A stretch of DNA of 62,435 nt from Candidatus Binatia bacterium (lineage in GTDB: Bacteria > Eisenbacteria > RBG-16-71-46 > SZUA-252). Made by a program: the position numbers and the translations under genes. Below the pieces are notes generated by a model. The model did not search any database. It had not been told where the DNA came from and saw only the letters and a list, made by a program, of their open reading frames with translations. The stretch is taken from the NCBI GenBank assembly GCA_035631035.1, contig DASQJL010000072.1:1-62435 (forward strand), in the 5' to 3' direction. Below are positions 20,213-32,552 of the stretch, one piece after another (position 1 is the first letter of the stretch; every line of letters begins with the position of its first letter).

Positions 20213-22090
20213 TCAGCGGCGGCCGAAGCGGCGGTCCAGCTCCTCCATCGAAACGCGGACGTACGTCGCGCGCCCGTGCGGGTCGCCGTGCGGCAGGTCG
20301 GTGGCGAAGAGGCGGTCGATCAGCGCGCGCCGCTCCTCGGGGCGGAGCGGCTGTCCCGAGCGGACCGCGGCGTGGCAGGCGAACGATTTCGCGACGCGCT
20401 CCTCGGGGGGCTCGTCGCCCGCGCCGTGCGCCTCCTCCCCCACGAGGAGCGAGCGGAGCGCCTCCACGGCCGCCTCCTCGGGCACCGAGGCCGGGACCGC
20501 GCGGATCGCGATCTGCTTTTCGCCGAAGAGCGACACCTCGTAGCCGAGGCGCCGGATCTGCACCTCCAGCAGAAGCAGGTGGTCCAGCTCGTCGGGGGTC
20601 ACGTCGAGCACGCGCGGAAAGAGGAGGTGCTGGCTGTCGGCCTCTTCCCCACACAGGCGGGCGCGCGCCTGCTCGTAGAGGATCCGCTCGTGGGCCGCGT
20701 GCTGGTCCACGACGACCAGTCCGCCGCGGATCGGCGCGAGCAGGTAGCGGTCGTGGAGCTGCCAGATCGGAATCTCGGTCTCGAGGAGGTTCTCGCGAAC
20801 CGCGGCCTGCCCGCCCTCCTCCACGCGCTCGGGGGCGAGTCGCGGCGCCGCGGCGTATTCCTCGATCACGGTCTGCGTCGCCGCCGGCGCCGAGCCCAGC
20901 GCCGTCGCGGTCTCGGCGCCCCCGGGACGCGGAAGGAGCGCGCCCTGCGCGCCCCAGTAGGCGGCGCCCTCGCCGGCCAGGGCGTCCGGGCCCGCGGAGC
21001 CGGGAACGCCGGCCCCCTGAACCTGCGTCCCCGCCGGTGGAGAGGGCTGCGCGGCGGCGGGCCGCGGCGCGCGCACCTCCGGGATGTCCAGCGACACCGG
21101 AACGTGGCGGCGCATCGTCGCGTCCACGGCGCGCTTCACGGCCTGGAAGACGCGTCCCTCGTCGCGGAAGCGCACCTCGCGCTTCGTGGGATGGACGTTC
21201 ACGTCCACCTGCGTGGGGTCGATCTCGATCATGAGGACGGCCATCGGGTGGCGGTCGCCGGGGACGAGGTTTCCGTATCCCTGGCGCAGCGCCGTGCCCA
21301 GCGCGGGCGAGACCACGAGGCGGCCGTTCACGGTGAGGACCTGCTGCTCCCGTCCCGCGCGCGCCTGCTCCGGCGCGCCCAGCACGCCGCGGACGACGAT
21401 CTCACCCGACTCGTCGCTGAACGCCGAGGCTCCCTCGGAGGCTCCGCGTCCGTAGAGGACCTGCCAGCGTTCGAGGAGATCCTCGGCCGCGGGCAGGTCC
21501 ACGTCCTCGCGGCCGGCCGAGGTGAAGCGCCAGTGGATCGCGGGATAGGTCAGGATGTAGCCCCACGCCGCGCGCGCGACGGCCCGGATCTCCGACTCCC
21601 TCGACTTCAGGAAGCGGAGCCGCGCGGGCGTGTTGAAGAAGAGATCTTCGACGGTGACGGTGGTGCCGACCGCGCGGCCGACCCCCGAGACGCCGATCAC
21701 CGTGCCGCCGATCACCTCGACCTGGGTCCCGGTCAGCTCGCCGGCGGAGCGGGTCGAGAGGGAGACGCGCGCCACCTCGGAGATCGACGCCAGCGCCTCG
21801 CCGCGAAAGCCGAGCGTGCGGATCGCCTCGAGGTCCTCCTCGGAGGAGAGCTTGCTGGTGGCATGGCGGCGGACCGAGAGCAGCGCGTCCTCGCGCGACA
21901 TGCCGGCGCCGTCGTCCTGGACGCGGATCAGCTTGTCGGGGCTCGCGGCGACCTGGACCGCGACGAGGCGGCTCCCCGCGTCGATCGCGTTCTCGATCAG
22001 CTCCTTCGCGACGGCGGCGGGACGGTCGACGACTTCCCCGGCGCGGATCTTGGACGCGACCTCCGGAGGGAGAACCCGGATGGAGGTCAT
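20213..22090 (-). CDS. mutL: DNA mismatch repair protein MutL (endonuclease type)
   Basis: 625 residues. The N-terminal GHKL ATPase has ELIENAIDAGS, DDGAGM and TLGFRGEALASI. A Pro/Ala-rich linker (about residues 335-420) joins it to a C-terminal domain with DQHAAHERILYE, which fits the endonuclease motif DQHAX2EX4E, plus the later SFACHAAVRSGQ and DLPHGDPHGR blocks. So this MutL should nick DNA, as in species without MutH. ATG at 22090 overlaps the M24 peptidase stop (TGATG). Partner mutS lies about 8 kb upstream in the same strand run. Confidence 0.96.
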   Translation of the reverse strand: MTSIRVLPPEVASKIRAGEVVDRPAAVAKELIENAIDAGSRLVAVQVAASPDKLIRVQDDGAGMSREDALLSVRRHATSKLSSEEDLEAIRTLGFRGEALASISEVARVSLSTRSAGELTGTQVEVIGGTVIGVSGVGRAVGTTVTVEDLFFNTPARLRFLKSRESEIRAVARAAWGYILTYPAIHWRFTSAGREDVDLPAAEDLLERWQVLYGRGASEGASAFSDESGEIVVRGVLGAPEQARAGREQQVLTVNGRLVVSPALGTALRQGYGNLVPGDRHPMAVLMIEIDPTQVDVNVHPTKREVRFRDEGRVFQAVKRAVDATMRRHVPVSLDIPEVRAPRPAAAQPSPPAGTQVQGAGVPGSAGPDALAGEGAAYWGAQGALLPRPGGAETATALGSAPAATQTVIEEYAAAPRLAPERVEEGGQAAVRENLLETEIPIWQLHDRYLLAPIRGGLVVVDQHAAHERILYEQARARLCGEEADSQHLLFPRVLDVTPDELDHLLLLEVQIRRLGYEVSLFGEKQIAIRAVPASVPEEAAVEALRSLLVGEEAHGAGDEPPEERVAKSFACHAAVRSGQPLRPEERRALIDRLFATDLPHGDPHGRATYVRVSMEELDRRFGRR

Positions 22091-23304
22091 CAGGCGCGGC
22101 GGAGGATGGGAAGCTCTCGGGGAAAGCGGGAGAGGAAGCGCGCGCCCTCTGGGCCCACGACCACGTCCTCCTCCAGCGAGACGAGGCCGTGCCCCTCCAG
22201 CCAGAGACTCGGCTCGAGGGTGTAGACGTTGCCGAGGCGCACCGGCTCGAACGGCTCGTTCCCGTAGCGCTCCCAGCGGGGTCCCAGCACGCCGCCCCCG
22301 TCGTGCACCGCGCGGCCCAGATGGTGGCCGAGCGCGTGCGCGTACTCCGGGTAGCCGCTGCCGGTCAGGTGTCCCCGCGCGACCTGGTCCACTTCCCATC
22401 CGGCCGCGCCGGGGCGAAGCGACCGGGCGGACCGCTCGATCGCCTCGACCACCGCGGCGTAGCCGCGGCGGACCTCGGCCGGAGCGTCGGCGCCCCCCGC
22501 GGCCGCGACGTACCAGAGCCGCTGGAGGTCGGAGCAGTAGCCATCGAGCACGATTCCGAAGTCCATGTGGACGAGGCAGCCGGGGGTCACCTTCTCCTCG
22601 CCCGGGGCGACGTGCCCGACGGCCGCGTGCGGCCCCACCGTCACGGTCGGGCAGTGGCGGCGCGGCCACGCCGTGGGCGCTCCCAGCCGGTCGGCCTCGG
22701 CGTGCGCCAGGGCCGCGATCTCCCGCGCCGTCATCCCGATCGCGAGGGCATCCCGGACGCGGTCGAAGATCCCCTCGGTCTGCTGGATGGCGCGCTCGAT
22801 CCGCTGCCGCTCCTCGTCCAGCTTCACCGAGCGGAGATGCGCGAGGAACTTCCCCGCCGGGGTGAGGCGCGCCGCGTGCGGCGTCGCCGAGAGGACGTTC
22901 CCGAGATAGTCGCGGAGGCCGGCGGTGAGCCCGTCGGCCAGCGCGTCGTCCTCGGAGACGTTGATCCCGATGCTCCGCGGCTTCGCGCCGTCCAGGATCT
23001 CGAGGAGCGCCGCCTTGGGCCCTTCCTTGTACGTCCGGACCTCGTCGAAGATGGCCGCCTTCTGCACGTCGGGCGCGTCGAACGTGGCGACGAGCGCCGT
23101 GGAGGTGCGCTCGGTCACCAGGAAGAAGGTCGTCCACGTGAACTCGACGTCGAGGAAGTAGCGGAGCATCGGATCGGGGCGCTCCTTCGACTCCCGCACG
23201 ACGGTGAGCCAGGCGTCCAGGTCGTGCTCGGCGAGGAGCGACTGGGCCTGGGCGAGCTTCTGCGCGCCCAGCGAGGGGGCGCGCGTCGCGACGGTCGGTG
23301 GCAT
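22090..23304 (-). CDS. M24-family metallopeptidase (Xaa-Pro aminopeptidase-like)
   Basis: 404 residues: creatinase-type N-terminal domain, then a pita-bread peptidase domain. All five metal ligands are present: MDFG and CSDL Asp, ALGHHLGR His, TLEP Glu and LEEDVVV Glu. The family releases N-terminal residues before proline, or acts on small amides. ATG at 23304, just after a 50-bp gap from the GAF protein gene. It overlaps mutL by 1 bp. Cytoplasmic, since there is no signal peptide. Confidence 0.88.
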   Translation of the reverse strand: MPPTVATRAPSLGAQKLAQAQSLLAEHDLDAWLTVVRESKERPDPMLRYFLDVEFTWTTFFLVTERTSTALVATFDAPDVQKAAIFDEVRTYKEGPKAALLEILDGAKPRSIGINVSEDDALADGLTAGLRDYLGNVLSATPHAARLTPAGKFLAHLRSVKLDEERQRIERAIQQTEGIFDRVRDALAIGMTAREIAALAHAEADRLGAPTAWPRRHCPTVTVGPHAAVGHVAPGEEKVTPGCLVHMDFGIVLDGYCSDLQRLWYVAAAGGADAPAEVRRGYAAVVEAIERSARSLRPGAAGWEVDQVARGHLTGSGYPEYAHALGHHLGRAVHDGGGVLGPRWERYGNEPFEPVRLGNVYTLEPSLWLEGHGLVSLEEDVVVGPEGARFLSRFPRELPILRRA

Positions 23305-23354: not shown

Positions 23355-25661
23355 CTATTCGCCGCGGATCAGCGCGATCAACTCTCCGCCGGTGGCGATC
23401 TCGTCGGGGTAGGCGTACTGCCGCCCGAGGAGGCGGATCTCGCTCGGGGTCTCCATCTCGCGCACGCAATCGAGACGCGGGAGGAGGAGGTCCAGCCGCT
23501 TCAGGAGCGCGCCGGAATCCTTGTCGGTCTCGGGCGAGAGCACCGCGAAGCGCCCCTCGCCGACGCGGGCCACCGTGTCCACCTCGCGCACGTTCCGTCC
23601 CAGCGAGGCGCCGAATTCCCTGAGCAGCCGCTCCGCGAACGCAGGACCGTGCCGCTCGGCGATGAGCGGGAACTCGGCGATCGCGCAGAGCGTGAGCAGG
23701 AACCCCTCGTGGTAGCGCTCGGCGCGCTTCACCTCGTCCTGAATGCGCGCCTCCAGCCCCGATCCGGTGAGAAGGCCGGTCACGCGGTCCAGCGACTCGG
23801 GCTCCTGGCCGCCCAGTCCGCGCACGTGGTCCCACGCGATCGAGACGTAGAGCGCGAGCTTCCGGAGCGCGTCCATCTCGGGCTCGCCCAGGCCGCCGCC
23901 CCGGCCCGCGTGCGGAGGAAGCACGATCCCGAGCGAGCCCGCGATGAGGTCGGAGGTGCGCACGGGGACCGTCGCCGCGTCCCCCTGGTCGGCGTCGCCC
24001 ATCGCGCCCATCCCGCCCAGGGAGTCGAGGTCGACGGGTGATGCCGGCGAAAGCTCCACCCCATCGGCCATCGACCTGGCGGCCAGCGCGGCTTCGCGCT
24101 CGCGCGCCGGCTCGCGCCCTTCCTCGGCGCCCTCGTAGGCGGTGCGCAGGACGACGTCGCCATTCCTGTCCAGAAGCCGCGCGACGGCGAGCCCGCTGGG
24201 GAACAGCGCGCGCAGCGCCGCGATCGTCTCCAGCGCCAGCCCCTCCATCTCGCGCGTGACCATGAGACGCGGCGCGATGTCGGCGAGCTGCGAGACCATC
24301 GTCCCGCGCCGGTCCGCGCCCGCGTCGGGCTTCCGATGCTCGAGGAGCGAGACGAGATAGGCGGCGACGCGGTCGAGCACGTGCGCGAGCGCCTCCGGGT
24401 CGTAATCCCCGGCGCCCGCGAACTCGGCCGCGAGCACGCCGTGCACGTCCCGGCCCCGGAGCGGCGTGACCAGGAGCACGGCGGGGCGCGTCATCCCCTC
24501 TTCGCCCGGGCGGACGATCTCACCCGTGAGGCAGGCGCTCTCGCCTTCGCGGTGGGCGCGTCCGACGAGACCGGCCGCGTGGACCGGCAGCATGCCCGTC
24601 TCCCCCGCGCCCGACCCCGACGCCAGCACCGCGAACTCCCGCGCGCCCGCCTCGGCGGCGTACACCGTGACCGATTGCGCGCCCAGCCGCATCGCGAGGC
24701 GGGTGGCGGCCGCGCGGAGCCGTTCGGCGCGCGGCCCGTTCTCCGCCTTGAAGACCCGGTCCAGTCCCTGGCGCGCGCGGAACTCCAGCGCCTCGAGGTC
24801 GCTGCGCGAGCGGCGCACCACGCGGTCGAGGATGGCGGAGATCTGGGCGCCGATCTCGACCAGCCGGTCGAGGTCCTCGTCCTTGAATCGCTTTCCCTGG
24901 CGGTTGCTGGAGACGTTGAGGACGCCGATCACGCGGTCGTCCAGCTGGATCGGCGCGGACATGGCCGACGCGATGCGCGGACGCTCCCGGTCCTTGTAGC
25001 GCGGATCCAGCACCCGCTCGTTCACGATGAGCGGCTTTCCGCTCTGCGCGACCGTTCCGGCGATCCCCTCTCCGATCTTCTGCCGCACGGTCCGCACCGT
25101 GTCGTGCGAGAGCCCGTCGGCGAACGCGATGCGGAGCTCCCCTTCGTCCTCGTCCACCAGCATGAGCGAGCCGGCGTCGGCGCCCGTCTCGGCGATCGAG
25201 AGGGCGAGCACCTCGCGGAAGAGCCGCTGCCGGTCGTCGGAGAGGGCGAGCGCGTCGCGGATCTCCGTGAGCCGGTTCCCCGCCCCCGCGGCCACCTCGA
25301 ATTCGCGCTCCCATTCGTCGATCGGCGCGGGCTGCGGATCCGCGGGACGCTCGGCCGGTCCGTCGTTCAGGATCGCCAGCAGGTCGGGCAGCGGCAGGAA
25401 GATGTTCGGGGAGATCCCGGCGCGCAGGAGCGCGGAAGCGCCCGGGGACTCCAGGGACGGCAGGGCCACGCGATCGGGCTTCAGCGCGAGGAGATCGAGC
25501 GGCTCGGTGGAGCGCGGGATCTGGAGCACCTCCGCGATGCGCAGCGAGAGGGCCTCGGGATCGGCGCTCGCGACGAGGACCAGCTCCACCCCGTCCGCAC
25601 CCCTCGCGGTCGAAATGAGGTCCACCCGGTCGTCGGGCAGGTCCAGGAAAGCGAGTCTCAT
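23355..25661 (-). CDS. Multi-GAF protein with degenerate GGDEF domain
   Basis: 768 residues. After an N-terminal domain of about 120 residues comes a clear GAF domain (GADAGSLMLVDEDEGELRI through VIGVLNVSSNRQG, about 140-290), then one or two weaker GAF-like domains, and a C-terminal GGDEF-like fold starting DRVTGLLTGSGLE. In the position of the GGDEF loop the sequence reads VGEGRFAVL, so the catalytic residues are missing and diguanylate cyclase activity is unlikely. It is probably a ligand or c-di-GMP-responsive sensor without an output enzyme. It sits between the propeller/Ig gene and the M24 gene; no transmembrane segment was seen. Confidence 0.75.
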   Translation of the reverse strand: MRLAFLDLPDDRVDLISTARGADGVELVLVASADPEALSLRIAEVLQIPRSTEPLDLLALKPDRVALPSLESPGASALLRAGISPNIFLPLPDLLAILNDGPAERPADPQPAPIDEWEREFEVAAGAGNRLTEIRDALALSDDRQRLFREVLALSIAETGADAGSLMLVDEDEGELRIAFADGLSHDTVRTVRQKIGEGIAGTVAQSGKPLIVNERVLDPRYKDRERPRIASAMSAPIQLDDRVIGVLNVSSNRQGKRFKDEDLDRLVEIGAQISAILDRVVRRSRSDLEALEFRARQGLDRVFKAENGPRAERLRAAATRLAMRLGAQSVTVYAAEAGAREFAVLASGSGAGETGMLPVHAAGLVGRAHREGESACLTGEIVRPGEEGMTRPAVLLVTPLRGRDVHGVLAAEFAGAGDYDPEALAHVLDRVAAYLVSLLEHRKPDAGADRRGTMVSQLADIAPRLMVTREMEGLALETIAALRALFPSGLAVARLLDRNGDVVLRTAYEGAEEGREPAREREAALAARSMADGVELSPASPVDLDSLGGMGAMGDADQGDAATVPVRTSDLIAGSLGIVLPPHAGRGGGLGEPEMDALRKLALYVSIAWDHVRGLGGQEPESLDRVTGLLTGSGLEARIQDEVKRAERYHEGFLLTLCAIAEFPLIAERHGPAFAERLLREFGASLGRNVREVDTVARVGEGRFAVLSPETDKDSGALLKRLDLLLPRLDCVREMETPSEIRLLGRQYAYPDEIATGGELIALIRGE

Positions 25662-25821
25662 TGGATTTGGTTGTGCCGGCCCCGTTTGGTAGGCGGAATG
25701 GTCCGAGGCCGAGAACGCAAAGAGTGTACCACCCCGGAAACCGCACGGGGGCGCGCCGGAAGCGCGAGCGCGGGTTGCATCGTGCGCGGCGACGTGCGCT
25801 TTGCACGACGGCCCGGAGGGG

Positions 25822-28023
25822 CTACTTCGCTACGGTTAGCACCTTCGCGATCGCCACGTTGCGGTCCTGGTCGGACGCGCGGACCGTGACGGTGTGTTCC
25901 CCGGGGGGAAGGCTCGGGACGGGGATCCGGAAGTTCTCGGTGCGCTGGTCGTACAGGCCGTCCTCCGGAAAGATCTGGACCCAGTCGCCGCCGTCGACCG
26001 AATACTCGATCACCGCGATCCGCGAGTCGGCGTCCACGGCCGTGCCGCTCACCACGACGCCGCGGCCGCCGAGCCCGCCGCCCGAGGAGGTCTTCATCCC
26101 CTCGATGCGCGGCGGGACGTTGTCGATCGTGACGGCCGGGCCGGTCCGCTCCGAGGAGAGCGCCACGTCCGGCGGGTTGTCCACCCTGTCCGAGGCGATC
26201 ACCTTGATGCGGTAGGTCCCGTTCGCGTAGGACTCGGCGTCCCACGAGACGATGCGATCCTTCTTGTCGGTCGCCAGGTTCCGCCACTCCTTCTCGTCGT
26301 CGCTCCGGATCAGCACGTCGTACGTGAGGTCGTCGCCGTTGGGATCGGCGGCGTCCCAGGTCACGGTGCGCACGCCGCGCGCCCAGGCCGCGCTCGCGTC
26401 GGAGACCGCGCGGGGGCCGGTCTTCGGCAGCGAGTACTCCACCTTCAATCCGTTCGGGAAGGTCTGCGAGATCTGCGGGGGCCGGTACTCCGGGCCCCCC
26501 TCCATGAACGGCTGGTCGGGTCCGAACACCTGGATGTTCCCGATCTCCGGCGGCAGGTTGCGCTGCCGGTAGGAGACCTCGGCCATCGAGAGGAACGGAA
26601 GATCGCTCCCCGTCTTCTTGAGACGCAGGCGGAACTGGAGGAAGCGCGCGGGAGGGCTCTTGATCTCGGCCCCTCCGGGACCGATCGGGGTCTCGGGGCT
26701 CCAGTCGCTCCAGCCCTCGTCGGGCGTCTGGCTGAGGCCGCTGCGCGAGGACCACGTCGCCTCGCCGTCGCGAAGGGAGACGAGCGCGCGTCCCCAGGAC
26801 GCCACCGAGCGGAGGTCGTGCGCGTCGGAGAGATAGGTCCCCTGCGCCGCGGGGCCGGAGCCCAGGGCGTAGAGGATGGCCGGGTTCCCCGTGGCGGCGA
26901 AGGTCTCGCCGCCGGAGCGGATCAGGGCGAGCACCTGCTTTTCGTCCGGGGCGCCGAGCAGCGCGTACTTGCGATTGGTCGAGACGCGGAAGAGCGCGCC
27001 CGGGTCGCCCGTCGACACCCACACCGACTGGTCGTCGGCGGGAATCATGGAGTAGATGTAATCGGCCGTGGGCGCGTAGAGCAGCCGCGCGCTCCCGTCG
27101 GGCTGCACCAGGTAAACGCCGCTCCGCCCGCCGCTCGTGGGCGTGACGTCGACGGCGTAGGGACTGGCGCCGCCTCCCCCCGCCGAGCGCGAGGACGCCT
27201 GCCCCTTGCTCGCGCCGACCGCGACGGAGCCGTCGGGAAGCACCGCGATGGCCCGGATCTCGTCGGCGTCGGCGTCGTAGATCACGCGCTGGCGCCCGGC
27301 GCCCTCGACCTTCACGAGGAGCCCCTTCGCCCCTGTGCCCGCGAGGAGCGCGCCGTCCTTGGCCCAGGCGAGGGCGAGCACGTTCACGTCCTTGGTCTCC
27401 GCGTAGACGGAGCCCTTTCCCGGCCCCGTCACCTGGAAGATCTTCCCGCGGGGGCCGGTGCCGGCGTAGAGGGCGCCGTCCTTGCCGACCAGGAGCGACC
27501 AGATCGATTCCTCGCCCGTCTTGAAGTAGCGCGTCGTGTCGCCGCGCGCCGTGATCCGGAAGATCTCGCCCCCGGGCGCCGACGCGGCGTACACGTCGTC
27601 CCTGGCGTCCACGGCCATCGCGGTGATCTCGCTGGCGCCCGTCCTCCAGAGAAGCTTCGCTCCCTCGCCGCGCGTCCAGCGGTAGATGGCGCCGTTGTCG
27701 CCCGTGCCGAAATAGACCCGTCCCTTCGCGTCGCGCGCGAGGCTCCAGATGTAGGCCACGTCGGGAAGGCGCGTCACGACCGAATCCCATCCCGGTCCGA
27801 GGCTCAAGTAGCCGTCGCTCTCGATCGAGACGCCCACGACCTGCTCTCCCTGGAGGAAGTCTCCGGCGCTGTCCAGCCGCCAGAAGGAGGTGCTCACGGC
27901 GAGCGCGCCGGGGGCGTGGCAGGCGAGAAGAAGGACCGCGGCACTCCATGCCGCGACGAGCGCGGAGGGTCGAAGGGGCGTCAGAATGGCTCTCCTTTCG
28001 CGGCGGGACGGGCGCGGCGTCAT
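25822..28023 (-). CDS. Secreted beta-propeller/Ig-like domain protein
   Basis: 733 residues. A signal peptide (LVAAWSAAVLLLACHAPGALA) is followed by repeated propeller blades with GRVYFGTGDNGAIYR, DDVYAASAPGGEIFR and GALYAGTGPRGKIF-type units (about residues 60-430). Ig/Fn3-like modules follow (VTWDAADPNGDDLTYDVLI and YSVDGGDWVQIFPEDG regions) to the C-terminus. No catalytic motif is visible. ATG at 28023 lies 22 bp after the S55-type gene stop, so the two are probably cotranscribed. A surface or periplasmic binding/sensor role is inferred; the ligand is unknown. Confidence 0.75.
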   Translation of the reverse strand: MTPRPSRRERRAILTPLRPSALVAAWSAAVLLLACHAPGALAVSTSFWRLDSAGDFLQGEQVVGVSIESDGYLSLGPGWDSVVTRLPDVAYIWSLARDAKGRVYFGTGDNGAIYRWTRGEGAKLLWRTGASEITAMAVDARDDVYAASAPGGEIFRITARGDTTRYFKTGEESIWSLLVGKDGALYAGTGPRGKIFQVTGPGKGSVYAETKDVNVLALAWAKDGALLAGTGAKGLLVKVEGAGRQRVIYDADADEIRAIAVLPDGSVAVGASKGQASSRSAGGGGASPYAVDVTPTSGGRSGVYLVQPDGSARLLYAPTADYIYSMIPADDQSVWVSTGDPGALFRVSTNRKYALLGAPDEKQVLALIRSGGETFAATGNPAILYALGSGPAAQGTYLSDAHDLRSVASWGRALVSLRDGEATWSSRSGLSQTPDEGWSDWSPETPIGPGGAEIKSPPARFLQFRLRLKKTGSDLPFLSMAEVSYRQRNLPPEIGNIQVFGPDQPFMEGGPEYRPPQISQTFPNGLKVEYSLPKTGPRAVSDASAAWARGVRTVTWDAADPNGDDLTYDVLIRSDDEKEWRNLATDKKDRIVSWDAESYANGTYRIKVIASDRVDNPPDVALSSERTGPAVTIDNVPPRIEGMKTSSGGGLGGRGVVVSGTAVDADSRIAVIEYSVDGGDWVQIFPEDGLYDQRTENFRIPVPSLPPGEHTVTVRASDQDRNVAIAKVLTVAK

Positions 28024-28045
28024 CGGGAGGCGTCTCGAGGCGCGA

Positions 28046-29848
28046 TCATCGGTTTCCGGGAATGACGGTGACGGTGGCGCTCTCGCATCCGCGCACGACG
28101 TGCCCCAGCGGGATCGCGGCCTCGGACACGGTCGCGCCCTTGGTGGCGGCCGACTCGCCCGACTTGGGCGATGAGCCGAGCACGTTGAGCACGGAGCCGG
28201 GCGCCTGGGACATCTCACGGCCGCCCACGACGGCGCCGCCCGCGGCGCGATAGAGCTGCACGTAGATCCGGTCGGACGGACGGTCCGATTCGATCAGATC
28301 GGCGAGCTGGTCGAACGTCTCGGGCTGATATCGCTCCGGCGCCCGCTGCATCTCCCACTTCTCGGTCTCGGTCGCGTCGCAGACGCGCACCGTGAGATCG
28401 CCCGCCGGCGTCGAGGGCGGGACGCGGACCCGCACGCGGCGGGTCTCGACCAGGCGGTTCGAGCGGCGGAGCGTGAGGTCCACGTCGAGCGAATCGCCCG
28501 CGATGACGGCGGCGGGCGCGACGCGGATCCCGAGCAGCGCAGCCTCGTCGATCCCCTCCTCCACGCGCACGCTGACGCGCGCCGAGTCGAGCCGCGAGGG
28601 GCGGAACCGGTCTCCGAGGAGAAGCGTGAGCGACTGCCCCACGGTCTCTCCCACCCCCGAGACGGGTGCCGTGCTGATGAAGGTGTCTTCCTTGTGGATC
28701 GTGCGCGCGCCGCCGTTCATGTAGAGCGCGAAGTCGTACCGCAGCGTGGCCACGCCGGCGTCGTAGAGCGCTTCGGAGATCGAGTTCACGACGGTCGCGC
28801 TTACGAGCGCGGGCGTGAGATAGCGGCTCCGCGCCACCTCCATGCGGTAGGAGCGGGAACGCCCGCCGGTCCCGGTGATCGCGACGGAGACCGGAATCAT
28901 CGACGGCGACGGGCCCAGGGTCCCCGCGATCCCCGTGCTCCGGTCGGCGAAGATGGTGCCGCAGGTCACCGTGGGCGAGCCGATCTTGTTCGAGATCTCC
29001 TGGCTGGACATGATCGTGTGGATCCTGGCCGCCGTCATCGGCAGCTCCATCCAGCCCATCGCGAGGAAGGGATGCCCGAAGGCGAGCACGCGGTCGCCGT
29101 CGCGGTAGGTGACGGTGCCGATCGCCGCCGCCGACCAGTCGCCCCGCACCAGCTGAACCCCCACGGCCGAGCCGGGGCGGAGCGAGTCGCAGGAGCCCCC
29201 GGGGGCGTTGGCCCCGCCGGGGCTTGCGACGAAGCCGCGCTCGGAGAGCCAGGGCTGGAGGTAGCGGATCGCTTCGCTGGTGAAGCCGGCGAGCGCGAGC
29301 GGCGTGGCGATCGGCCTCGCGCCGCCGACGTCGCCCGACGGCTCCTTGGGCGCCCCGAGGGATCCGAAGGCGTCCTCGGGGTTCGACGGCCGGGCGCCGG
29401 GGGCCGGGAGGAGGCTCAGCATCTGGTCGATCGGCGTGATCCCCGCCATCGGCTCCTTCAGGAAGGCCCAGGTGTAGGAGACCGCGCCGATCAGCTTTCC
29501 CCCGACGTAGACCGGGCTTCCGCTCATCCCCGCGATGACGCCGGTCCGGTCCACGACCGGGCCCGACGCTTTCGCCATGATGAGGTCGAAGCCGGGGCGA
29601 TAGCTCTTCAGCACCCCCACGATGGTGACCGAGAAGGTGTCGATCTGGGTGCCGGAGAAGACGCTGTAGCCGGTGCCGACCATCCCCTCGCGGATCTCGG
29701 AGACGGGGAGCCTGGCCGAGGGCGGGATGAGCGGCGGCGGGGCCGCCCAGGCGGCGCCGGGCAGCGTTCCCCCCGCGAGGACCCCAGCGATTCCGGAGGC
29801 GAGGAGGAGAGCCGGTAGGACGCGCCCGAGCGCGCGACGAATGGTCAT
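28046..29848 (-). CDS. Secreted SpoIVB/S55-type serine peptidase-like protein
   Basis: 600 residues with a signal peptide ending near AAWAAPPP. Residues 48-120 (EIREGMVGTGYSVFSGTQIDTF to GMSGSPVYVGG) match the S55 block, with the Ser motif GMSGSP at about residue 107. A second motif, LAFGHPF, lies much later (near residue 265). In SpoIVB the His comes before the Ser; here the order is reversed. Cys-containing CDSLRPG and TVTCGTIF flank that part. ATG at 29848. It lies between mutS and the propeller gene. Such proteins occur in many non-sporulating phyla; peptidase activity is unproven. Confidence 0.75.
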   Translation of the reverse strand: MTIRRALGRVLPALLLASGIAGVLAGGTLPGAAWAAPPPLIPPSARLPVSEIREGMVGTGYSVFSGTQIDTFSVTIVGVLKSYRPGFDLIMAKASGPVVDRTGVIAGMSGSPVYVGGKLIGAVSYTWAFLKEPMAGITPIDQMLSLLPAPGARPSNPEDAFGSLGAPKEPSGDVGGARPIATPLALAGFTSEAIRYLQPWLSERGFVASPGGANAPGGSCDSLRPGSAVGVQLVRGDWSAAAIGTVTYRDGDRVLAFGHPFLAMGWMELPMTAARIHTIMSSQEISNKIGSPTVTCGTIFADRSTGIAGTLGPSPSMIPVSVAITGTGGRSRSYRMEVARSRYLTPALVSATVVNSISEALYDAGVATLRYDFALYMNGGARTIHKEDTFISTAPVSGVGETVGQSLTLLLGDRFRPSRLDSARVSVRVEEGIDEAALLGIRVAPAAVIAGDSLDVDLTLRRSNRLVETRRVRVRVPPSTPAGDLTVRVCDATETEKWEMQRAPERYQPETFDQLADLIESDRPSDRIYVQLYRAAGGAVVGGREMSQAPGSVLNVLGSSPKSGESAATKGATVSEAAIPLGHVVRGCESATVTVIPGNR

Positions 29849-29885
29849 TAGTAGTGGGAACAATACGGACTGGAGGAAGGTTCCG

Positions 29886-32552
29886 TCAACGAGTCCCGCC
29901 CGATCCCCGCGCCCGGTCACGCAGCGAGGCCAGGCGCTGGAGCGCATCCAGCGGCGTGAGCCGCTCCACCGGGGCGTCGGCCAGCTCGACGAGGAGCGCC
30001 GCCCGCTCGTCCGCCCCCACGCCCCGCCCCGGGCCGCCCCCCGCGTCCCCCCGCGCGCCGTTCTGGCCGGCGGCGTGCTCCCGCTCCAGGCGCGCCAGGA
30101 TCTCCTCGGCGCGGGCGAGCACCTCCCCCGGCACGCCGGCGAGCTGGGCGACGTGGATCCCGTAGGAGCGGTCGGCGCGCCCCGGCGCGATCACGTGCAG
30201 GAAAACGATCCTCCCCCCGGTCTCCGAGACCCGCACGTTCCGGTTCTTGAGGCGCGGCAGAGTCGCCTCGAGATCGGTCAGCTCGTGGTAGTGGGTGGCG
30301 AAGAGGGTTCGCGGGCGCGCGCGCGGGCCCTCGTGCAGGGCCTCGGTCACCGCCCACGCGAGGGAGAGCCCGTCGTAGGTGCTGGTCCCCCGCCCCACCT
30401 CGTCCAGGAGCACCAGGCTCTGGTCGGTGGCCTGGCGCAGGATGGCCGCGGTCTCCTCCATCTCGACGAAGAAGGTCGAGGCGCCGCGCGCGATCTGGTC
30501 CGAGGCGCCGACGCGCGTGAAGATCCGGTCGGCGAGCCCGATCTCGGCCGACGCCGCCGGGACGTAGGAGCCGACCTGCGCGAGATAGACCGCGAGCCCC
30601 ACCTGGCGCAGGAAGGTGGACTTGCCCCCCATGTTGGGGCCGGTGATCAGCCAGATCTGCTCCCGCTCCCCGTCGAGCGCGCAGTCGTTCGGAACGAAGG
30701 CGCCGCCGTCCAGCGCGCGCTCCACCATCGGATGCCGCGACTGCTTCAGCACGAGCTTCCGGCTCTCGGTCAGGACCGGGCGCGTCCAGCGCTCGCGTGC
30801 GGCGGTCTCGCCGAGCGCGCGGTACAGGTCGAGCTCGGCCACCACGCGCGCGGCGTCGTGCAGGGCGCCGATCGACTCCAGGCACCGCTCGCGCAGGCGG
30901 TGGAAGTGCGCCGCCTCGGAGCGGCGGCTCTCCACGTTGGCCGCCTCGATCCGCTCCTCCATCCGCTTCAGCTCGGGCGTGACGTAGCGCTCGGCGCCGG
31001 CCAGCGTCTGCTTTCGAATGTAGTCCTCGGGCGCGCGGGCGAGCTGCGAGCGGGTGATCTCGATGTAGTAGCCGAAGACACGGTTGTAGCCCACCTTGAG
31101 ATTGGAGATCCCCGACCGCGCGCGCTCCCGCGCCTCGAGCGCGAGCACCTGCTCGCGGCCGTCGCCCGCGTCGCTCCGCATGGCGTCCAGGTCGGGATCG
31201 AACCCCGGACGGATGATCCCCCCCTGGGTCGCGGTGAGCGGGAGCTCCTCCATCAGCGCTTCCTCGAGCAGCGCCGCGAGCCCCGAGAGGTCGGGAAGCG
31301 CCTCGCGCCAGGCGCCGATCGCCGCCCCCGTCCGCGCCTCCAGCGTAAGGCGCACGGCGGGCAGGCGCCGGAGCGCGTCGCGCACGGCGCCCAGGTCGCG
31401 GGGCGCCGCGCGTCCGGAGCCCAGGAGTCCGAGCGTGCGCTCGAGATCGGGGAAGCGGTGGAGCCGCTCGGCCAGCTCGGCCCGGAGCGGCGCCGACTCG
31501 GCGAAGCAGGCCGTGCGGTCGAGGCGCGACGTGACCACCGCGCGCTCGCGCGCCGGCTTCCTGAGGAGCGCCCGGAGCGCCCGCGCTCCCATCGAGGTCT
31601 CGGTGCGGTCGAGCAGGTGGAGCAGCGCGTGCTCCTTCCCCGCCGGCGACTCGAAGACCTCGAGATTCCGAAGCGTCACCTCGTCGACGACGAGCGGCTC
31701 TCCCTCGCGGAGCGGGCGGATCTCCCGGATCTGCGGCAGGTCCGATTTCGCGAGCGAGCGCAGGTAGTCGAGCAGCGCGCCGGCCGCGCCCAGCCCCTCG
31801 CGTCCCGCGTCCAGCCCGAACGCGTCGAGGCGGGCCACCGAGAAGTGCCGGAGCAGCGCCTGGCGTCCCGCCTCGGGATCGAACCGCGCCGGCTCGCGGC
31901 GCGTGATCGGCACCTTGCCGTAGGGCGAGCCCTCGCCGTCGCCGCACGCCGGGTCGCGCCCGCCGCGACCGGATAGCGGCAGCAGCACCTCGCGCGCGGG
32001 AAACGCGAGCGGGAGCGCGGCGAGTCCCTCGGCGTCCACCGTCCCCGCGCGAAATTCCCCCGTCGAGACCTCGGCCACGGCGACCCCGATGCGCGCCTCG
32101 CCGGGGGCGAGCGCCACGATGTAGTGGCTCTCGGTCGCCTCCAGAAGCCCGAGCCGCGTGACCGTGCCCGGCGTGAGCACCTCCACCACCTGGCGGTCGA
32201 CCAGCCCCTTCGCCTCCTCGGCGCTCTCCATCTGCTCGGCGATCGCGACCGAGTAGCCGTGCTCGACCAGCTTCTTGAGGTACCCCTCGACCGAATGGTG
32301 CGGCACGCCCGCGAGCGGAAGCGGGTCGCGCTTCTTGTCGCGGGAAGTCAGCGCGATGCCGAGCACGCGCGAGGCGACGAGCGCGTCCTCGCCGAAGGTC
32401 TCGTAGAAGTCGCCCATGCGGAAGAGGAGGATGCTCCCCGGATGCTCCGCCTTGAGCCTCCGGTACTGCTCGAGCATCGGGGTCGTCTCCCCGCGGGCGG
32501 CGACGCTCTCCGCCGCGCCGTTCGCTTCCGTGCGGACCGGGGTGGTCTCCAC
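29886..32552 (-). CDS. mutS: DNA mismatch repair protein MutS
   Basis: 888 residues. Mismatch-binding FRMGDFYETF carries the Phe-X-Glu motif of MutS1. The ATPase domain has Walker A TGPNMGGKST, Walker B LVLLDEVGRGTSTYDG and the late FATHYHELTDLE. The C-terminal region after LARLEREH is Gly/Pro-rich and then ends in the usual helix. It recognises base mismatches and recruits MutL. GTG at 32552, 1 bp after the SPOR-domain gene stop. Confidence 0.97.
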   Translation of the reverse strand: METTPVRTEANGAAESVAARGETTPMLEQYRRLKAEHPGSILLFRMGDFYETFGEDALVASRVLGIALTSRDKKRDPLPLAGVPHHSVEGYLKKLVEHGYSVAIAEQMESAEEAKGLVDRQVVEVLTPGTVTRLGLLEATESHYIVALAPGEARIGVAVAEVSTGEFRAGTVDAEGLAALPLAFPAREVLLPLSGRGGRDPACGDGEGSPYGKVPITRREPARFDPEAGRQALLRHFSVARLDAFGLDAGREGLGAAGALLDYLRSLAKSDLPQIREIRPLREGEPLVVDEVTLRNLEVFESPAGKEHALLHLLDRTETSMGARALRALLRKPARERAVVTSRLDRTACFAESAPLRAELAERLHRFPDLERTLGLLGSGRAAPRDLGAVRDALRRLPAVRLTLEARTGAAIGAWREALPDLSGLAALLEEALMEELPLTATQGGIIRPGFDPDLDAMRSDAGDGREQVLALEARERARSGISNLKVGYNRVFGYYIEITRSQLARAPEDYIRKQTLAGAERYVTPELKRMEERIEAANVESRRSEAAHFHRLRERCLESIGALHDAARVVAELDLYRALGETAARERWTRPVLTESRKLVLKQSRHPMVERALDGGAFVPNDCALDGEREQIWLITGPNMGGKSTFLRQVGLAVYLAQVGSYVPAASAEIGLADRIFTRVGASDQIARGASTFFVEMEETAAILRQATDQSLVLLDEVGRGTSTYDGLSLAWAVTEALHEGPRARPRTLFATHYHELTDLEATLPRLKNRNVRVSETGGRIVFLHVIAPGRADRSYGIHVAQLAGVPGEVLARAEEILARLEREHAAGQNGARGDAGGGPGRGVGADERAALLVELADAPVERLTPLDALQRLASLRDRARGSGGTR

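Follow-up and report, generated by a model that had tools for sequence, protein, structure and literature searches.

What holds together the genes that lie between mutS and mutL in this genome, and what would they do? The window, by which we mean the whole analysed stretch of 62,435 nucleotides, comes from a genome of 3.35 Mb that is 97% complete. A preliminary description, made from the sequence letters, placed a secreted S55-type protein, a secreted propeller/Ig protein, a GAF protein with a dead GGDEF domain, and an M24 peptidase between the two genes, all on one strand, and left the choice between a signalling module and chance packing. The shared strand is the minus strand, with the M24 and mutL genes falling just outside positions 23,355–32,552 (Table 1). 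The gaps from mutS through the S55, propeller, GAF-GGDEF, M24, and mutL genes to miaA are 37, 22, 160, 50, 2, and 1 bases. For the five proteins scanned, a set that does not include mutL, Pfam agrees with the domains called. On a simple hydrophobicity scale, both proteins called secreted have a fitting N-terminal hydrophobic segment, and the M24 protein has none. Rfam finds four tRNAs in the window and nothing else. A consensus scan of the gap between mutS and S55 gave one sigma70-like site (0.2 expected) and one terminator-like site (2.3 expected), neither of which is used as an argument here.

Table 1 Features of the locus, listed from mutS downstream.
Feature	Position	Strand	Description
mutS	29886-32552	-	GTG start; Pfam MutS I-V; housekeeping neighbour upstream of the S55 gene
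S55 protease gene (predicted)	28046-29848	-	600 aa; PF05580
Propeller/Ig gene	25822-28023	-	733 aa; Reg_prop, Big_7; ATG 22 bp past the S55 stop
Sigma54-type -24/-12 motif TGGTACACTCTTTGC	25717-25731	-	55 nt ahead of the GAF-GGDEF start codon
GAF-GGDEF gene	23355-25661	-	Degenerate GGDEF (GEGRF), RxxD motif REVD retained; lineage-specific neighbour
M24 metallopeptidase gene	22093-23304	-	Lineage-specific neighbour
mutL	20213-22090	-	Name from the preliminary description; homologues in the same place in relatives; housekeeping neighbour downstream
miaA	19270-20211	-	

The S55 protein belongs to PF05580 (33.8 bits against a cut-off of 25), as the preliminary description had called it, by a match that covers only positions 126–202 of the 210 in the profile, the Ser part, at ORF residues 94–170. 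PF05580 was found in 59/59 members of the family at E 0.01; at that threshold the only other Pfam match among them was MG2, in a single member, and there was no trypsin-type or PDZ match. The SpoIVB equivalog TIGR02860 scores 28.4 bits, far under its cut-off of 305.25. From its N-terminus, the protein consists of a signal segment (residues about 1–35), a Ser half (about 36–150) with the GMSGSP motif and Ser109, a linker, a His half (about 220–345) with Asp237 and His259, and an unnamed beta-rich region (about 345–600).

Profile comparisons support a circular permutation relative to SpoIVB, with the Ser half ahead of the His half. When a profile of 30 SpoIVB sequences is used, its Ser part, which is C-terminal in SpoIVB, matches the N-terminal part of all 40 relatives. 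The His part comes second, at residue about 240–260, in the window's protein and four others, with bits below 0 that are not significant alone; in L064 and L074, the second match lands elsewhere. Aligned by hhalign against 62 SpoIVB sequences, query residues 14–118 pair with SpoIVB 256–360 (E 1.3e-14) and residues 135–301 with SpoIVB 81–284 (E 0.0035), giving a swapped block order. The His block alone aligns over 101 columns (score 31.6, E 5e-4), pairing catalytic His with catalytic His and GxGTxT with GxGTxT. This score exceeds all 200 unfiltered column shuffles by a thin margin (mean 15.1, s.d. 3.1, maximum 30.0), and the reversed block scores 16.0; against a narrower set of 30 close SpoIVB sequences the result is borderline, the observed 22.1 being matched by 1 of 100 shuffles. 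A simple motif search finds the Ser motif and then GH in 165/169 sequences and leaves the other four unclassed. Compared with SpoIVB (MEROPS S55; PF05580; TIGR02860; 9lnf), the S55 protein shares homologous Ser and His halves and the GMSGSP and G-H motifs, but has the halves in reverse order, no PDZ domain by Pfam, and an extra C-terminal region of about 250 aa.

The AlphaFold model of the S55 protein (pLDDT 92, pTM 0.90) has no Foldseek match at E 0.001, and by sequence SpoIVB 9lnf is its sole PDB relative. Model residues about 10–119 align in many rows with the half of DegQ, DegS, and HtrA1 that holds the catalytic Ser (second barrel), at Z values of about 6–7.4 that by the tool's own note are possibly common. 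Sequential structure aligners cannot reveal a permutation, and the lack of a His-barrel match for the model in VIA counts neither way. The linker block aligns to SpoIVB at E 0.018, which is weak as a PDZ-like match. The protein resembles HtrA/Deg proteases in its predicted trypsin fold, predicted envelope setting, and match to their Ser barrel, but differs from them in barrel order and in the absence of trypsin-type and PDZ matches from its family.

Among the putative catalytic residues, Ser109 is retained in 169/169 sequences, His259 in 168/168 of those with a residue at that place, and Asp237 in 165/168. The positions that match SpoIVB Asp363 and Thr393 are not conserved, being mostly L/V/A and A/S/G, with one T. 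For SpoIVB itself, the accessible part of a 2025 structure report places Asp363 about 24 Å from His236 and proposes Thr393 instead (PMC12502668). The SpoIVB sequences compared here (among L076–L105 and L186–L225) have Asp in 61 and Glu in 1 of 62 at the place equivalent to Asp237, 23 residues ahead of the catalytic His, a residue that is not named as catalytic in that part of the report (PMC12502668). These patterns point to Asp237, rather than Asp363 or Thr393, as the candidate third catalytic residue common to both forms.

A profile search of named genomes found at least 586 S55 relatives, the best 80 of which were kept. Their titles are Zixibacteria, Latescibacterota, Gemmatimonadota, Planctomycetota, Acidobacteriota, KSB1, Poribacteria, WOR-3, Cloacimonadota, and others, as well as two Actinomycetota, one Acidimicrobiia, and one Bacillota. 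Actinomycetota and Acidimicrobiia are groups without a typical outer membrane, and the loci with these titles (L158, L174, L184) possibly come from mislabelled bins. To these 80 we added 40 loci from 39 of 61 S55-bearing genomes and removed two duplicates, giving 118 loci that are mostly best-matching rather than random. In this sample, 95/108 loci with room have the propeller gene as the next one downstream, in the same orientation, at a median gap of 19 nt; 10 loci have no room, and 13 lack the propeller nearby. Across 118 genomes, with thresholds of E 0.001 for S55 and E 1e-20 for the propeller, S55 occurs in 61, the propeller in 59, both in 58, and neither in 56, so that 58 of the 62 genomes with either hold both. 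The exceptions are G008 (contig edge), G062, and G098 (canonical SpoIVB), with S55 only, and G042, with the propeller only; in G063 the propeller match is partial. For the 71 genomes outside the class of the window, the counts are 18 with S55, 16 with the propeller, and 16 with both.

The two genes are also retained together where they are apart. In 11 of the 13 genomes without adjacency, a propeller match lies elsewhere, in surroundings that vary; seven are near full length at E < 1e-200 (one with an internal stop codon), to which G104 is added, and three are fragments or split. Among the signs that the two genes function jointly, their being kept together while unlinked is the strongest. Distances of the two proteins correlate (Mantel r 0.83, 42 loci, 0/1000 permutations), which mostly reflects shared ancestry and is not counted as proof. 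No fusion in one frame was found among 7312 ORFs, and clustering of neighbour families in the 80 named loci gave no third partner recurring across phyla. On sequence grounds, the S55 and propeller genes are a conserved two-gene unit, predicted to belong to the envelope, and adjacency together with co-occurrence, also where unlinked, rules out chance packing of the pair. A literature search, with subscription journals mostly outside its reach, found no description of a permuted S55 protein or of this pair. By eye, an ECF-sigma-like gene occurs near the pair in 12 of the 80 named loci (L110, L127, L133, L135, L138, L143, L144, L162, L166, L177, L178, L184). Its median distance downstream is about 4.5 kb, and most instances have the opposite orientation and come from Acidobacteriota.

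The propeller protein is modelled as a seven-bladed beta-propeller (residues about 75–391), a further beta domain, and an Ig-like part. It resembles virginiamycin B lyase and Reg_prop propellers in its seven blades (2z2o, Z 34.9 over 288 residues) but shares only 12% identity with 2z2o, carries the extra beta and Ig-like parts, and has no histidine kinase. Vgb_lyase scores 17.9 against a cut-off of 50 on the window's propeller and matches 15/46 of its relatives at E 0.001. In Foldseek, its best matches come from Bacteroides two-component or one-component systems, where they are the sensor domains.

Around the pair, the family of the window preserves the block: mutS is immediately 5′ of S55 in 8/8 other genomes, the GAF-GGDEF gene is next after the propeller in 7/7 loci with room, and mutL is in place in 6/6 loci whose contig reaches it. 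Because of the first two orders, the arrangement is beyond chance within the family. In family f6, the GAF-GGDEF gene is present in 3/3 loci, and M24 was not found in these three. In other loci of the class, the S55 and propeller genes stay together, mutS lies a few kb upstream in six (L053, L054, L057, L058, L063, L070), and the genes in between look lineage-specific by eye. In five of these loci (L053, L054, L057, L063, L070), the interval from mutS to S55 holds a gene of ~617 aa that by eye is homocysteine-methyltransferase-like and has the orientation opposite to that of the pair. The mutS and mutL genes are lineage-specific neighbours of the pair.

The GGDEF domain that the preliminary description called dead has a degenerate active site in 11/11 proteins, comprising that of the window (GEGRF) and 10 relatives (GGGRF, TEGRF, GEATF, and similar). 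The inhibitory-site RxxD is kept as REVD in all 11, and four further GGDEF matches occur in the same genome; the protein may read c-di-GMP rather than make it. Its first 140 aa (25242–25661) have no PDB relative at E 1 and a Rossmann-type look by eye. A search for such neighbours gave a match of at least 1023 bits after the pair in 10/10 loci with room of two related families, and weak matches elsewhere. The latter are five same-strand matches of 21–58 bits, upstream in L060, L129, L158, and L159, and downstream in L160 (58 bits, 257 aa); an intact GGDEF or GGEEF motif is present in L158 and L159 and absent from L060, L129, and L160.

The gap ahead of the GAF-GGDEF gene is poorly conserved apart from TGGTAC-N5-TTGC. 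The sigma54 promoter consensus, TGGYAC-N5-TTGC, has one exact match in the window against 0.01 expected. The motif is exact in 6/7 other family loci (absent in L039) and in L051, with one mismatch in L049 and L050; the genome encodes rpoN (E 6e-65). No such motif was found ahead of S55 in the seven loci scanned. The -24/-12 pattern is not enriched across the genome (14 against 12 in a reversed control), so the sigma54 argument rests on conservation in place. By this conserved motif, the GAF-GGDEF gene is a separate gene with its own predicted sigma54-type promoter. The M24, mutL, and miaA genes lie close behind and could be transcribed in part from the same motif; it would be unusual for RpoN to control mismatch repair, even partly.

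A different gene context is seen in Bacillota, the phylum to which we assigned G098, as PF05580 occurs in 175 of 199 sampled genomes. The form with the predicted permutation was found in 49 of the 199, of which 42 also carry a strong canonical SpoIVB match and seven carry this form only; in G258 and G347 the matches cover only the second part of the permuted protein. A FastTree phylogeny clusters 48 Bacillota sequences with one other sequence (support 0.67). On the same strand within four ORFs downstream, the 49 loci have TamB in 35, Omp85/BamA without TamB in four, and MlaE-MlaF-MlaD in two, which is 41/46 loci with room. Three loci have no room, five (L278, L279, L302, L310, L311) show no TamB, BamA, or Mla gene, and opposite-strand ORFs interrupt a few. 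Upstream, 20/49 have genes for the flagellar L/P-ring or FlgJ. Pfam on representatives identified TamB (E 4e-42), POTRA/Omp85, FlgI, FlgH, FlgA, rod-binding, MreB, M23, and NAGPA/AMIN, while the MlaE, MlaF, MlaD, TolC, Skp, and LptF/G labels are sequences read by eye. The neighbours of the permuted S55 gene in Bacillota are thus TamB, BamA, or Mla genes, not mutS and mutL. Outside Bacillota, outer-membrane genes are not recurrent neighbours of the pair: leaving aside L185, which bears a Bacillota title, we found a single weak TamB match and a single Omp85 on the opposite strand. A propeller search of seven of the 49 Bacillota genomes and of G062 yielded either no match or weak, partial ones (E 1e-8). 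Across L264–L312, an AMIN/NAGPA (phosphodiester glycosidase) gene is often directly 5′ of the permuted S55 gene, and at L280 the order is NAGPA, S55, MlaE, MlaF, MlaD; we take DUF2233 to be the older name of NAGPA.

This context resembles a locus that, in the accessible text of Antunes et al., is conserved in diderm Negativicutes and Halanaerobiales and absent from monoderm Firmicutes (PMC5007114). For Veillonella parvula, the accessible text of Poppleton et al. lists Vpar_0519 (DUF2233), Vpar_0521 (SpoIVB-labelled, of unknown function), Vpar_0526 (TamB), and Vpar_0527 (BamA), and reports Vpar_0521 in the outer-membrane fraction (PMC5491611). A further study gives, in its accessible part, the V. 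parvula order as MlaEFD, then TolC and TamB (PMC10665443). The gene order, with Vpar_0521 between the DUF2233 gene and TamB/BamA as in L280, and the SpoIVB label suggest that the permuted S55 protein is Vpar_0521. Unlike our protein, Vpar_0521 is described as an N-terminal SpoIVB part with a C-terminal DUF1090, and the accessible text mentions no permutation or propeller partner (PMC5491611).

With moderate confidence, we propose that the S55 protein is an active, permuted, SpoIVB-homologous envelope protease with a role in outer-membrane assembly or lipid transport, together with the propeller outside Bacillota; it is probably an overlooked outer-membrane factor. The protein would be an exported trypsin-fold serine protease with the Ser barrel first, the His barrel second, and then the beta-rich region, acting in the periplasm or at the outer membrane in quality control or processing. 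Outside Bacillota, the secreted propeller/Ig protein would present or recognise the substrate, or tether the protease. The swapped order is supported by sequence; catalysis, active-site geometry, site of action, contact between the partners, and substrate are what we infer. Weighing against this reading are the thin margin of the His-block score, the lack of recurrent outer-membrane neighbours of the pair outside Bacillota, the poor propeller matches in the Bacillota genomes searched, and the three loci titled Actinomycetota or Acidimicrobiia. A less probable role is SpoIVB-like signalling, in which the propeller senses an envelope ligand and the S55 protein cleaves a membrane protein, which sets off regulated intramembrane proteolysis with an ECF sigma factor as its possible end point. 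The homology to SpoIVB, which the accessible literature places in such a pathway, the Bacteroides sensor domains, and the 12 loci with an ECF-like gene fit this role. We consider it unlikely, however, as the Bacillota context is one of outer-membrane assembly, the strand and lineage of the ECF-like gene are against it, and no other neighbour family is widely recurrent.

The loss of both SpoIVB Asp363 and Thr393, together with a scaffold-type propeller as partner, could instead mean that the S55 fold is dead and has a structural or lipid-binding role within the outer-membrane machinery. The Ser and His are kept throughout, Asp237 nearly so, and SpoIVB is acidic at the same place in 62/62, making such a fold quite improbable. 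One four-gene module between mutS and mutL, carrying an envelope signal to nucleotide signalling, would fit the close spacing on one strand and a block kept across the family. We regard it as very improbable, since outside two families the pair occurs without the GAF-GGDEF and M24 genes, and the GAF-GGDEF gene has a sigma54-type motif of its own. Of the two options originally left standing, what survives is a real unit of S55 and propeller far beyond the lineage, with the whole block kept in the family, and not a module of four genes. In the favoured reading of an outer-membrane protease and its partner, the GAF/dead-GGDEF protein would be encoded by a sensor gene of its own, under sigma54 control, that two families have gained downstream.

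A family known to databases only through part of a sporulation peptidase, with at least 586 relatives in one collection, appears to be an envelope enzyme of rearranged order that occurs in many groups. In that case, it offers a candidate function for Vpar_0521, which in 2017 was singled out as an important target from the outer-membrane proteins of unknown function. It would also provide a partner gene in many phyla and allow the catalytic triad of SpoIVB, which is disputed, to be compared with that of an outside family (PMC12502668). More tentatively, and with some doubt on our part, the permuted S55 protein could be an ancient core factor in the outer-membrane biogenesis of many diderm lineages that has been overlooked, with SpoIVB as its rearranged relative and Asp237 as the third catalytic residue in both. 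The site of action of SpoIVB is the space between the two membranes that surround the forespore. If this proposal is true, the presence of both forms in one genome would connect the sporulation signal with the tools of the outer membrane and inform the debated relation between outer membranes and sporulation.
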